Assembly: GCA_012840535.1 (NCBI GenBank)
Contig: DULF01000011.1
Location: 1-34,636, forward strand
Source: Clostridiaceae bacterium
Lineage (GTDB): Bacteria > Bacillota > Clostridia > Acetivibrionales > DUMB01
Length of the DNA stretch: 34,636 bases
Reading direction: 5' to 3'
The notes beneath the pieces were generated by a model, which saw only the letters and a list, made by a program, of their open reading frames with translations, did not search any database and was not told where the DNA came from. Of this stretch, positions 2,896 through 25,892 are shown one piece after another. The first letter of the stretch is position 1; each line of letters begins with the position of its first letter. Both the position numbers and the translations under genes were made by a program.

Positions 2896-3639
2896 TTACT
2901 TGGAATTCTCGAATAAAAGCTGACATTTATCAGCTCTGTATTTTGATACAACAAATTCTACAATCTGGCCGTTTTTCGAAAAAAGTACGTTTTCAATTTT
3001 GATTAGGGGTAATCCTGTTTGCACTTGAAGGTACTGTGCATCGCTCTGGTCAGTAAAAACTATCTCAAGCTTGCTTTTTGTCCTTACCGGCACAAGCGGA
3101 TACTTGCCCTTTAAAATTTCATGTGACGGCTTACCGGCCTTGATATCTTCAATAATGTTAGGAAACAACCCTAATGGTATATAAGAAACATTCAATGACA
3201 GGACTTGGTTGTCTTGAGTTAACACGTACTTAATTTCAGCAATTTCCACATTATTGCCATACCCAGGAGAAGATTTGAACACCTCATTCAACCGCCTGCA
3301 AGAATCTGGGATAATTGCGTTGATAGATACTATATTGCGTTTGCCCGGTTCAGCGCTGTCTAATATTGAATCTGTAAATCCGGAATAGTTCCTTATGTCA
3401 ATGCTGGTCTTCTGGGCCGCCACAAAGGTACCTTTGCCTTTCACTTTATACAGGTAACCATTGTTTGTTAATTCGCTTATGGCTTGACGTACAGTAGGCC
3501 TGCTGATGTCATATAATTCACAGAACTCTTGTTCCGACGGGATCTTGGAATCTCTTGGGTATTCTCCGCTTTCAATCTTTTCAATAATGAGATTTTTCAG
3601 CTGGCAGTATAAAGGTACATTACTGTATTTGTTAATCAA
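2896..3639 (-). CDS. GntR-family regulator, HutC subfamily (UTRA domain)
   Basis: This 247-residue repressor-type protein has an N-terminal GntR winged helix (about 4-74: PLYCQLKNLIIEKIESGEYP, then PSEQEFCELYDISRPTVRQA, ending in the wing KVKGKGTFV). A UTRA effector-binding domain follows (about 95-240). Proteins of this class usually sense a small metabolite such as a sugar phosphate. The start is TTG at 3639, chosen because GGGAGGG lies 8 nt upstream. No metabolic partner sits in the same operon: purB is upstream on the same strand across a 170-bp gap, so the target cannot be named. Autoregulation is likely for the family but not shown. Confidence 0.88.
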   Translation of the reverse strand: MINKYSNVPLYCQLKNLIIEKIESGEYPRDSKIPSEQEFCELYDISRPTVRQAISELTNNGYLYKVKGKGTFVAAQKTSIDIRNYSGFTDSILDSAEPGKRNIVSINAIIPDSCRRLNEVFKSSPGYGNNVEIAEIKYVLTQDNQVLSLNVSYIPLGLFPNIIEDIKAGKPSHEILKGKYPLVPVRTKSKLEIVFTDQSDAQYLQVQTGLPLIKIENVLFSKNGQIVEFVVSKYRADKCQLLFENSK

Positions 3640-3714
3640 ACAACAAACCCTCCCATATGGGGATATTCCTTAATACAAGAGAGAATGACTCATATTTTGA
3701 AAAGGATTGCCCCT

Positions 3715-3743
3715 ATACTATTATTAGAATGTTATTACATCAA
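3715..3743 (-). promoter_or_regulatory. Candidate promoter and operator of the GntR-family gene
   Basis: TTGATG (3738-3743) and TAGTAT (3715-3720) are 17 bp apart on the minus strand. An inverted repeat ATGT-TATT-ACAT (3729-3740) lies between and across these elements and is a possible autoregulatory operator. Both elements are imperfect. Confidence 0.4.
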
Positions 3744-3809
3744 GACTAATTTTATAACATTTAAATGCTTATTTCAATAAAAATTGTTATGTTTCTGCAT
3801 AATTTGCAC

Positions 3810-5237
3810 CTAGACTTTTAACTCGACATCAACATCTTCATCGCTATATTGCCGTAGTACAGGCCTTATGTATTCTTCGATAAACTCTTCAACCTGCTCA
3901 GGAGCCCTGCCAATATAGTTTTTAGGATCAAGCACTGAGTTTATTTCTTCAAGTTTCAAACCAAATGCGCTGTCAGAAGCAATCCTTTCAATAAGGTCAT
4001 TTTTTTCTCCTTCAACTTTTACTTTTTTAGCTGCTTCCATTGAGTGTATTCTGATACGCTCATGGAGTTCCTGCCTGTCCCCTCCCCTTTTTACAGCTTC
4101 CATTAAAATGTTTTCTGTAGCTATGAAGGGAAGTTCGTCCATCAGGTGCTTTTCAATAACTTTGGGGTAAACTACAAGGCCTCCTGCCACATTTATATAT
4201 ATGTTTAATATTGAATCAACAGCAAGAAATGCCTCAGGCACGCTTATGCGTTTATTTGCGGAATCATCGAGAGTCCTTTCAAACCATTGGGTTGAAGCGG
4301 TTATTGCCGGATTCAACGTGTTTACTATAACATACCTTGCAAGGGCTGCAATTCTTTCACACCTCATCGGGTTCCTCTTGTATGCCATTGCAGATGAACC
4401 TATTTGCTTTTTCTCAAAAGGTTCCTCAATTTCTTTCAGGCTTTGCAATAATCTGATATCATTGCTGAATTTATGAGCGCTCTGGGCAATTCCGCTTAAA
4501 ACATTCAACACCCTGCTGTCAAGCTTTCTGGTATAAGTCTGCCCTGATACGGGATATACGCTTGAAAAGCCCATTTTTTCAGCAATTAGTAAGTCCAGTT
4601 TTTTCACTTTTTCATGATCACCGTCAAAAAGCTCAATGAAACTTGCCTGGGTTCCTGTAGTTCCCTTGGAACCTAAAAGCTTCATGTTTGAAATAATATA
4701 CTGAAGGTCCTCAAGATCAATAAGCAAATCCTGAATCCACAGGCACGCCCTCTTACCGACAGTTACAGGCTGGGCAGGCTGAAAATGTGTAAAGCCTAAT
4801 GTAGGCATATCTTTATACTTGACAGCAAAATCTGTTAATTTTCTGATTACGGTGATAACCTTTTTTCTAATCAGTTTCAAAGCTTGTGTCATTAATATAA
4901 TATCAGTATTATCACCAACATAGCATGACGTCGCACCCCAGTGTATTATCCCCCTGGCTTTTGGGCATTGTTCTCCATATGCATGTACATGCGCCATGAC
5001 GTCATGACGTACTTCCCTCTCTTTTTCCTCTGCAACATCATAGTTGATTATGTCTTTATATTGTTTAAGTTCATTTATTTGCTCATCCGTTATATTAAGG
5101 CCAAGTTCTTTTTGCGCCTCAGCAAGCGCTATCCAAAGCTTTCTCCACGTTTTAAACTTCATATCAGGAGAAAAAATTTCCTGCATTTCTTTACTGGCAT
5201 ACCGTGAACTAAATGGGCTTTCATAAGTATTCCTCAA
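3810..5237 (-). CDS. purB: Adenylosuccinate lyase
   Basis: The enzyme removes fumarate from SAICAR and from adenylosuccinate in purine synthesis. The 475-residue protein carries the fumarase/ASL signature [20 protein letters not shown], with Ala where many members have Pro. It resembles the longer eukaryotic-type lyase rather than the roughly 430-residue Bacillus type: [54 protein letters not shown] and [10 protein letters not shown] recall the human enzyme closely. The start is TTG at 5237, with GGAGG 10 nt upstream; the ATG just upstream runs straight into TAA. No other purine gene is nearby, so it appears to be a single-gene unit. Confidence 0.95.
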
Positions 5238-17537: not shown

Positions 17538-17894
17538 TCATAAGTTATCAATCAAACTCTTTACCTCATTTTCAACATGCTTTACTTTCTCCCTGTCAGC
17601 AGCATCCATTTTTTCAACGTTCAGGCTGTTAAGTATTTCCAATATGTTCTCCAACTTTTGCTTTTGCTCTAAATATTTTTTCGCAAGTCCCAGTTTTTCT
17701 TCCAATGTATTTAAAAGAGCTTTTCCTTTCTTAATATTATCATATACGCCCTGTCTGCTGATATTCAAATACTCAGCAATTTCTCCCAGGGAATAGTCGT
17801 TGTTATAATGCATATCCAATATACTGTACTGTCTCTCAGTCATAAACTGACTGTAAAAATCAAGCAACAAACTAATTTTAAGCACATTCTCCAT
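17538..17894 (-). CDS. ylxM: YlxM-family DNA-binding protein (UPF0122)
   Basis: The 118-residue protein has a sigma-70 region-4-like helix-turn-helix (about 18-60: RQYSILDMHYNNDYSLGEIA, then EYLNISRQGVYDNIKKG) and a helical C-terminal tail. YlxM proteins are found beside ffh and have been linked to the SRP system, but the molecular role is poorly defined. The ATG at 17894 has AAGGT about 10 nt upstream. It is the first gene after a strong promoter and a leader with two inverted repeats, which it might itself regulate (inference). Confidence 0.92.
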   Translation of the reverse strand: MENVLKISLLLDFYSQFMTERQYSILDMHYNNDYSLGEIAEYLNISRQGVYDNIKKGKALLNTLEEKLGLAKKYLEQKQKLENILEILNSLNVEKMDAADREKVKHVENEVKSLIDNL

Positions 17895-17917
17895 ATACTA
17901 TCATACCTTAAACATAT

Positions 17918-17941
17918 TGGACGTGTTAAACTATACGTCCA
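17918..17941. repeat. Inverted repeat in the ylxM leader
   Basis: The 7-bp perfect arms TGGACGT/ACGTCCA flank a 10-nt centre (GTTAAACTAT), starting 24 nt upstream of the ylxM ATG. It could be an RNA hairpin near the ribosome binding site or an operator. Confidence 0.5.
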
Positions 17942-17947
17942 CAATAT

Positions 17948-17985
17948 AAATAAGGTGTAAAGCAAAAATACTTTACGCCTTATTT
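17948..17985. repeat. Hairpin at the ylxM transcription start
   Basis: The 15-nt arms AAATAAGGTGTAAAG and CTTTACGCCTTATTT (one mismatch or wobble) flank an 8-nt loop. The outer arm overlaps the -10 element of the ylxM promoter. It might end ftsY transcripts or act on ylxM initiation; no long T-run follows on the minus strand. Confidence 0.55.
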
Positions 17986-18011
17986 TAATTTAGATACACA
18001 TATATTGTCAA
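17982..18011 (-). promoter_or_regulatory. Sigma-A promoter of ylxM-ffh
   Basis: A perfect TTGACA (18006-18011) is followed 18 bp later by TAAAAT (17982-17987) on the minus strand, between ftsY and ylxM. Confidence 0.75.
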
Positions 18012-18067
18012 GTATTAATTTAACTTCGCGCTTATTTTCTCATTTATTGCCGGCATGGTGCATTGAA

Positions 18068-23746: not shown

Positions 23747-24454
23747 TTAAAAACCCTTTTCAAGCGCCTGTTTTGCTGCATTCTGTTCAGCTTCTTTTTT
23801 GCTTCTTCCTCTGCCTATACCCATTACTCTGTCCGATGTTTTCACCTGGGATACAAAAAGCTTGTTGTGATCAGGTCCCTTTTCCTCAACTATCTCATAA
23901 GTTATTTTTTGATCACTGCTCTTCTGTACGAGTTCCTGCAGTTGGGTCTTATAATCCATAAATATGGAACCGTTTATTGAATCTTGTATAAGTGTTTTCA
24001 TTTTATCGAGCACAAACTCCTTTACCTTGGCAAATCCCCCATCAATGTAGACAGCGCCGATAAGCGCTTCAAATGCATCGGAAAGTATCGATGACCGTGT
24101 TCTTCCTCCGGAAATTTCCTCGCCTTTGCCAAGAAGAAGGTATTCGCCGAGGCCTATTTCGTTGGCGCATTTCATCAATGAAGTTTCACAAACGACATTA
24201 GCCCTTGCCTTAGTCATTTCACCCTCAGAAAGATGTGAATATTTCATATATATGTTATCGCTTATAACTAAGCTTAGTACCGAATCTCCAAGAAATTCAA
24301 GCCTCTCATTGCTCACAAAGCCCTTTCCCTTGTGTTCGTTTGCAAATGAACTGTGAGTTAAGGCAAGAAGCAGATTGTTTTTATCTTTAAAAACATACCC
24401 CATTCTTTCTTCAAACTCTGAAAGCCTGCTAAGCAATTCTTCCCTGCTATTCAT
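23747..24454 (-). CDS. rnc: Ribonuclease III
   Basis: RNase III cleaves double-stranded RNA in rRNA precursors and mRNAs. The 235-residue protein has the catalytic domain with NERLEFLGDSVLSL (Glu53, Asp57) and SDAFEALIGAVYID (Asp126, Glu129), followed by a double-stranded RNA-binding domain (about 160-235) ending KKEAEQNAAKQALEKGF. The ATG at 24454 follows AGGAGG by only 4 nt. Directly upstream is a long imperfect inverted repeat, a possible self-cleavage target. The ELP3-like gene and smc follow. Confidence 0.97.
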   Translation of the reverse strand: MNSREELLSRLSEFEERMGYVFKDKNNLLLALTHSSFANEHKGKGFVSNERLEFLGDSVLSLVISDNIYMKYSHLSEGEMTKARANVVCETSLMKCANEIGLGEYLLLGKGEEISGGRTRSSILSDAFEALIGAVYIDGGFAKVKEFVLDKMKTLIQDSINGSIFMDYKTQLQELVQKSSDQKITYEIVEEKGPDHNKLFVSQVKTSDRVMGIGRGRSKKEAEQNAAKQALEKGF

Positions 24455-24472
24455 ATTTCCTCCTTAGCTACC

Positions 24473-24589
24473 GGACAGTCATGGGCAATAGGATATATGC
24501 TAAGTGAGGCAATAACTTTCTTGAAGCTCCGATTTTAGCCCATGGCGGCTTATCCGTCACATAGCACATAGCCTATTGTCTATTCGTCC
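24473..24589. repeat. Long imperfect inverted repeat in the rnc leader
   Basis: Arms of about 36 nt (24473-24509 and 24554-24589) are imperfect inverted copies sharing terminal GGAC and the core CAATAGGnTATnTGCTAnGTGA. In rnc mRNA they would form a stem of roughly 22 pairs in a 26-27-nt core, with few mismatches, ending just upstream of the ribosome binding site. Its position in front of the gene for a double-strand RNase suggests autoregulation; a small non-autonomous mobile element is an alternative, though no target duplication is evident. Confidence 0.7.
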
Positions 24590-24593
24590 TGCA

Positions 24594-24644
24594 TTTTTTA
24601 AAAACCAGGTGCATAATATTCGAATATTAACTATTATGCACCTG
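24594..24644 (-). terminator. Rho-independent terminator of fabF
   Basis: A perfect 13-bp stem CAGGTGCATAATA/TATTATGCACCTG (24632-24644 and 24606-24618) with a 13-nt loop is followed by GTTTTT on the minus strand. It closes the fatty-acid gene cluster 12 nt past fabF. Confidence 0.88.
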
Positions 24645-24656
24645 ATTTAAATTGTA

Positions 24657-25892
24657 CTATTCATATTTCTTCAGCGCAAGAACAGCGTTATGCCCGCCGA
24701 AACCAAACGAATTTGACAATGCATATTTTATATCTGATTTTCTTCCTACATTAACAACGTAATCCAAGTCACAATCAGGATCCGGTGTTTTATAATTAAT
24801 CGTTGGGGGCAGGAAGCCTTCCTTCAACGCAAGAGCTGTAATAATAGCCTCTATACCTCCTGCTGCACCAAGCAAATGGCCTGTCATTGACTTGGTTGAA
24901 CTTACTGCAAGCTTATATGCGTGCTCTCCGAAGACAGTTTTGATAGCCATTGTTTCGTTCTTGTCATTCAGCTCCGTTGAAGTTCCATGTGCATTTATAT
25001 AGCCTATTTCTTCAGGTTTTATTCCCGCATCATCAATAGCCAGCTGCATGCATTTTGCCGCACCTTCACCGCCTTCAGCAGGCGCTGTAATATGGAAAGC
25101 ATCGTCATTGCTGCCAAAGCCCACTATCTCAGCAATAATATCCGCACCTCTTCTTAATGCATGCTCAAGTTCTTCAAGTACAACAATGCCTGCTCCTTCT
25201 CCCATGACGAAACCGTTTCTTTCTTGGTCAAAAGGCTTGCATGCATTTGAAGGGTCTTCTGAAGTAGACATAGTCTTCATGGCACAAAAACCAGCAAAGG
25301 ACAATGGAGTAATAGGTGCTTCAGAACCTCCTGCAATCATTATGTCTGCCTCGCCGAGCTGTATAATTCTGAATGCACGTCCTATAGAGCTGGTTCCTGT
25401 AGCGCAGGCGGTAACAACACACTCATTTGGACCTTTAGCACCATATTCAATGGCAATTCTGCCGGCAGCCATATTTGGAATCATCATCGGTACAAAAAAC
25501 GCGCTTACTCTTCCCGGACCTTTTGTTAAGAATACCTGGTGCTGTTCCTCAAGAGTCTCAATACCTCCAATACCAGAACCAACAATTACTCCCATACGGT
25601 TCTTGTCAATATTATCGAGGTCAAGCTTTGATTGCTCTATAGCCATTCTTGATGCAGCAATAGCGTAGTGTGTGTATCTGTCCATTCTCCTTGCTTCTTT
25701 TTTGTCAATAAAATCAGTTGGTTCGAAGTTCTTTATTTCAGCTGCGACCTTTGTGGGCATATTTGTTACATCAATTCTTGTAACATTACTGATTCCGGAC
25801 TTTCCAGCTTTAATGGAATTCCAGAATTCTTCCACGCCTATTCCCAAAGAAGACACTACGCCCATCCCTGTAATAACAACCCGTTTCCTCAT
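24657..25892 (-). CDS. fabF: 3-oxoacyl-ACP synthase II (KAS II)
   Basis: FabF condenses malonyl-ACP with acyl-ACP during chain elongation. The 411-residue protein has the Cys-His-His triad: Cys163 in [11 protein letters not shown], His302 in [12 protein letters not shown], and His339 in [12 protein letters not shown]. The ATG at 25892 has AAGGGG 7 nt upstream. It is the last fatty-acid gene of the cluster, separated from acpP by a hairpin and closed by a strong terminator. Confidence 0.97.

Follow-up and report, generated by a model that had tools for sequence, protein, structure and literature searches.

The long imperfect hairpin that precedes the ribonuclease III gene rnc in this clostridial genome raises the question of whether the RNase III mRNA carries a control element acted on by its own product. 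The window, that is the whole stretch of 34,636 nucleotides analysed here, encodes rnc at 23747..24454 on the minus strand (TIGR02191 equivalog; 264 bits, cut-off 166), with fabF upstream at 24657..25892 on the same strand (TIGR03150 equivalog). The 202-nt gap between the two genes consists, in the rnc sense, of an intrinsic terminator, about 8 nt, the imperfect hairpin (24589-24473), 7 nt, the Shine-Dalgarno sequence AAGGAGG (24459..24465, minus strand) and the ATG. The fabF terminator (24597..24648, minus strand) has a 17-bp stem with arms at 24648-24632 and 24618-24602 followed by U5; it is rated strong and ends ~8 nt before the foot of the hairpin. As no promoter is evident between this terminator and the stem, the rnc leader would be transcribed either by read-through or from an unrecognised start. 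The leaders of another clostridial family, termed f50 and described below, share the tight terminator-stem arrangement with the window, which suggests read-through from fabF in the window and from acpP in f50.

Analysis of the gap confirmed the hairpin on the rnc-sense (minus) strand at 24473-24589, where the preliminary description had placed an imperfect inverted repeat. Sequence and folds define a 5' arm (24554..24589, minus strand; GGACGAATAGACAATAGGCTATGTGCTATGTGACGG) and a 3' arm (24473..24509, minus strand; CCTCACTTAGCATATATCCTATTGCCCATGACTGTCC), which enclose a long apical loop (24510..24553, minus strand) of ~44 nt in the minimum free energy (MFE) fold. In the sense RNA, the core helix has 25 base pairs, or more if the GGACG/UGUCC foot is included, and the 3' arm ends 7 nt before the Shine-Dalgarno sequence; the earlier picture of a long stem close to the ribosome binding site thus stands, with its figures of roughly 22 base pairs and ~8 nt revised. 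The arms are imperfect, containing 1x1 mismatches and a 1x3 loop, and were therefore not listed by an exact-repeat finder. The central 1x1 mismatch has C24571 on the 5' side facing U24493 on the 3' side (both minus strand), at the position occupied by GxG in most relatives. The leader has an MFE of -41.3 kcal/mol (z -3.0, sense-strand fold), a value reached by 1.9% of 4000 dinucleotide shuffles, and the helix energy of the stem was reached by 0.5% of 4000 such shuffles. A stem passing the geometric scan described below appeared in 2 of 4000 leader shuffles (0.05%), and in 0 of 4000 once the base rule at positions -4, +1 and +2 was added. BLAST against the 3.19-Mb, 240-contig genome of the organism returned the hairpin itself and short chance matches, the next best being 15 nt; the hairpin is single-copy, so the arms do not belong to a generic dispersed repeat. 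It has no Rfam match at gathering thresholds. Elsewhere in the window, the minus strand has a further long, imperfect stem at 17895-18067, which contains a GxG mismatch and a TTGACA-like box and lies upstream of the gene at 17538-17894.

About 200 rnc leaders were compared by structure, since the leader DNA of G001, the one other genome that represents the window's family, could not be aligned with the window leader; in the comparison, the window's genus is represented by the window genome only. A crude comparison of stem lengths at the order level separated rnc poorly from other genes because AT-rich folds and terminators add noise, and was replaced by energy and geometric scans. Counts of GxG mismatches in MFE folds (9/16 versus 5/19 of nearby stems) are by themselves weak evidence, as the energy rules favour GxG mismatches. 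The fixed geometric scan calls for a central 1x1 mismatch with 7 pairs above and at least 9 of 11 below, and a stem end within ~30 nt of the rnc start codon. Its thresholds, like the -4/+1/+2 rule, were fixed after part of the data had been seen, and the nearest approach to independent tests is given by a set of 37 further leaders and 15 held-out f50 loci.

In the discovery set, GxG stems were found in 10 of 117 rnc leaders but in none of the 417 leaders taken from other genes at the same loci (Fisher 1.9e-7), where Fisher values, here and below, overstate the number of independent events because the species are related. Chance accounts for 0.12 such stems per shuffled set. The scan gave stems in two of the 37 further rnc leaders (L279 and L327), both with GxG, L279 belonging to the same family as earlier finds. 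In the sister genus g3, three species retain a stem at this location, with compensatory changes (one pair, for instance, is G-C, U-G or A-U). All three share two mismatches, C.A and GxG, which lie three pairs apart; their loops of 11, 104 and 117 nt, by contrast, are entirely different. GxG at a similar depth, in stems of largely unrelated sequence, was also observed in the family neighbour G001 (L013), in L012 and L151, and in other orders (L022, L201, L204, L233 and L244). Such a stem is absent from many rnc leaders of the same order. The clostridial pattern has no Rfam match, and no such rnc leader element was found in the literature searched, in which subscription journals are thinly covered. 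As a separate observation, the L022 leader (Petroclostridium sp. X23) has an additional hairpin, very long and GC-rich, located between fabF and the GxG stem, with the core GTAGGGGCGGACGACTC and the look of a dispersed repeat.

Covariation could be followed most closely in f50, the family of L327, of which 59 genomes were searched and in which the gene upstream of rnc is acpP, judged from its reading frame. The strict scan found GxG stems in 19 of 49 f50 rnc leaders. A covariance model (R1) built from 25 of the f50 stems located the element immediately ahead of rnc at 40 of 50 f50 loci, 15 of them outside the training set, and over 1 Mb of other loci its sole match was L327, itself a member of f50. 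The f50 alignment has two-sided changes at 13 of 21 pairs, a number matched by 0 of 500 shuffles. Of its cells, 93.4% are paired, against 84.8% after shuffling and about 40-50% after sliding, percentages that are inflated by the selection of stems for their pairing; safer evidence comes from the slid controls and the held-out loci. Folding and covariation of the relatives' leaders, as proposed in the preliminary description, thus revealed stems at the same place before rnc, and the covariation evidence is that of the relatives' stems (f50 and g3) rather than of the window's own stem. The relatives' stems tolerate G-U pairs on the sense strand, and the f50 model scores higher on that strand, as in L345 (71 bits versus 42 bits on the other strand). 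Together with the conserved non-pairing G on both arms, the higher sense-strand scores point to an element that acts as RNA rather than as a DNA dyad or site.

Comparison of 27 f50 stems and 14 others revealed a common signature. The centre is GxG, position +1 is A-U or U-A, and +2 pairs a 5' purine with a pyrimidine (R-Y). At -4, U or C on the 5' arm faces A on the 3' arm (Y.A) in 40 of the 41 stems, although adjacent positions vary as pairs. The rule at -4, +1 and +2 was read from the 31 strict GxG stems, among which the window stem is not counted, and all 31 obey it. The window stem passes the scan, with its end close to the start codon and sufficient pairs above and below the centre, and has U-A at -4, U-A at +1 and A-U at +2, all in agreement with the rule. 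Its centre is CxU (C24571 facing U24493) instead of GxG. Of the seven rnc stems in the discovery set with a centre other than GxG, none but the window stem agrees with the rule at -4, +1 and +2, and among 15 control stems one does. Neither covariance model, R1 (f50) nor R2 (mixed), matches the window stem, and R2 also misses long-loop members of its own training set. From these sequence features, we read the window stem as a divergent member of a leader pattern common to several families of Clostridia. The proposal that it would be an independent case in Clostridia is probably wrong, as it looks like a divergent copy of this shared pattern.

The GxG mismatch was also found in the long pre-16S stems (GAAAAgTAAACAGTGT / ACACTGTTTAgTTTTC) of three genomes of the same order: L260 (G035), L261 (G003) and L263 (G002). 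In the window genome, two contigs (L269 and L274) end in a pre-16S leader with an exact GAAAAGTAAACAGTGTA 5' arm, upstream of which both have a promoter-like TTGACA..TAATAT; neither a 16S gene nor the 3' arm of the genome's own pre-16S stem was found in the assembly. The pre-16S stem resembles the rnc leader in being a long stem with a GxG mismatch, but has A-U at -4 where the rnc leader pattern has Y.A, and in Petroclostridium the pre-16S stem shows a bulged G in place of the mismatch. GxG is a possible recognition feature common to both RNAs. As the neighbours of the mismatch differ at -4, mimicry of pre-16S by the rnc leader is only a hypothesis, and the similarity may be coincidental. The 23S processing stems gave no clear parallel. 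Close to an intact 16S gene, the L263 locus (G002) contains pieces of 16S and 23S rRNA genes around 3447-4352, perhaps owing to an assembly fault.

What such a stem does at this place may be viewed in several ways. RNase III or another protein might bind it and block the nearby ribosome binding site without cutting, the GxG making the site a binder instead of a substrate. The distance of 7 nt to the Shine-Dalgarno sequence is in line with such a block, as is the conservation of the mismatch and its neighbours amid pairs that are free to change, which would be expected for a specific contact; however, where autoregulation is known (E. coli, S. coelicolor and S. aureus) it acts by cleavage, and we consider binding alone unlikely. 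It is less plausible still that the stem is a generic 5' stabilising hairpin or a spacer structure of the mRNA, present by chance and unlinked to RNase III. Long stems near start codons do occur before other genes (14 of 417 leaders by the scan with any mismatch), but they are enriched before rnc (17 of 117, p 4e-5), and the GxG form is absent before the other genes.

Two further explanations concern the DNA itself. A dyad operator for a transcription factor, or a part of the rnc promoter with a start in the loop, would mean that the stem never forms in RNA. The weak promoter-like match GTGACG-17-TAAAAT in the loop (24560-24532, minus strand) would suit this arrangement, but agrees at 9 of 12 positions, no better than in shuffles (2 found, 1.5 expected), whereas the unpairable G kept by relatives on both arms and their tolerance of sense-strand G-U pairs fit RNA; we regard a DNA site as very unlikely. 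The GGAC/GTCC ends had also led to the suggestion of a small MITE-like mobile element inserted before rnc. Despite the terminal inverted repeats and the long internal loop, this origin is highly improbable, as the genome search gave no second copy beyond the 15-nt chance match, neither target-site evidence nor an Rfam match was found, and relatives carry unrelated stems at the same spot.

Altogether, the hairpin is probably a cis-acting operator of rnc, cleaved by RNase III itself and holding the enzyme at a set level. The earlier view of it as a candidate RNase III substrate is supported by where it lies, by its occurrence as a single copy in the genome and by the stems that other Clostridia carry in the corresponding position before rnc. 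We propose that RNA polymerase would pass the fabF terminator, or start just upstream of the stem, to produce an rnc mRNA with the entire hairpin in its leader. Directly ahead of the ribosome binding site, the 5' leader would form a long double helix with few interruptions. Once in excess over its main substrates, the pre-rRNAs, RNase III would bind and cut this helix, and the cut mRNA would be quickly degraded or poorly translated, thereby setting the level of the enzyme; rRNA might thus titrate RNase III away from its own leader. The simplest reading would be that Clostridia use a leader stem of their own for the self-control of rnc.

The larger result is a leader pattern of rnc that recurs in several clostridial families and is apparently uncatalogued; it could enter Rfam as a new family from the present alignments. 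More tentatively, and with the odds somewhat against it, these families may share a sequence-specific RNase III operator, in which the GxG stem and its fixed neighbours would be read directly, in a form related to the pre-16S substrate, so that the RNase III level would follow ribosome production. RNase III is commonly regarded as an enzyme that reads shape and exclusion rules, and the mismatch signature would represent a rare base-specific recognition by a bacterial RNase III. If such an operator exists, the CxU copy in the window would be a naturally occurring variant with which to test the bases that the enzyme reads.

Among known systems, E. coli RNase III binds and cuts a structure in the 5' UTR of its own mRNA, which is then rapidly degraded, and rRNA can titrate the enzyme away from this mRNA (PMC5371410). 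The same method as applied here recovered the E. coli rncO stem, with a 15-bp run and further pairs, 31 nt from the ATG. Like rncO, the window stem precedes the ribosome binding site within the 5' leader of rnc, and the proposed mechanism is the same. By contrast, the two stems have no sequence similarity, the main helix of E. coli lacks the GxG motif, and the gene order is lepB-rnc-era in E. coli but fabF-rnc-smc in the window; cleavage is known for rncO, whereas for the window stem we infer it. The best explanation by this analogy would be a working like that of rncO, with another sequence and architecture. RNase III also cuts its own transcript in S. coelicolor (absB) and S. aureus (rnc), according to the accessible parts of the sources, which describe no comparable leader motif in either species. 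The S. aureus transcript is reported to be cut inside the coding region (U+296), whereas in S. coelicolor the cuts fall within rnc as well as upstream of it. RNase III feedback has thus been worked out in three species, each with a different site, and a conserved clostridial leader stem would provide a family-wide, testable case.
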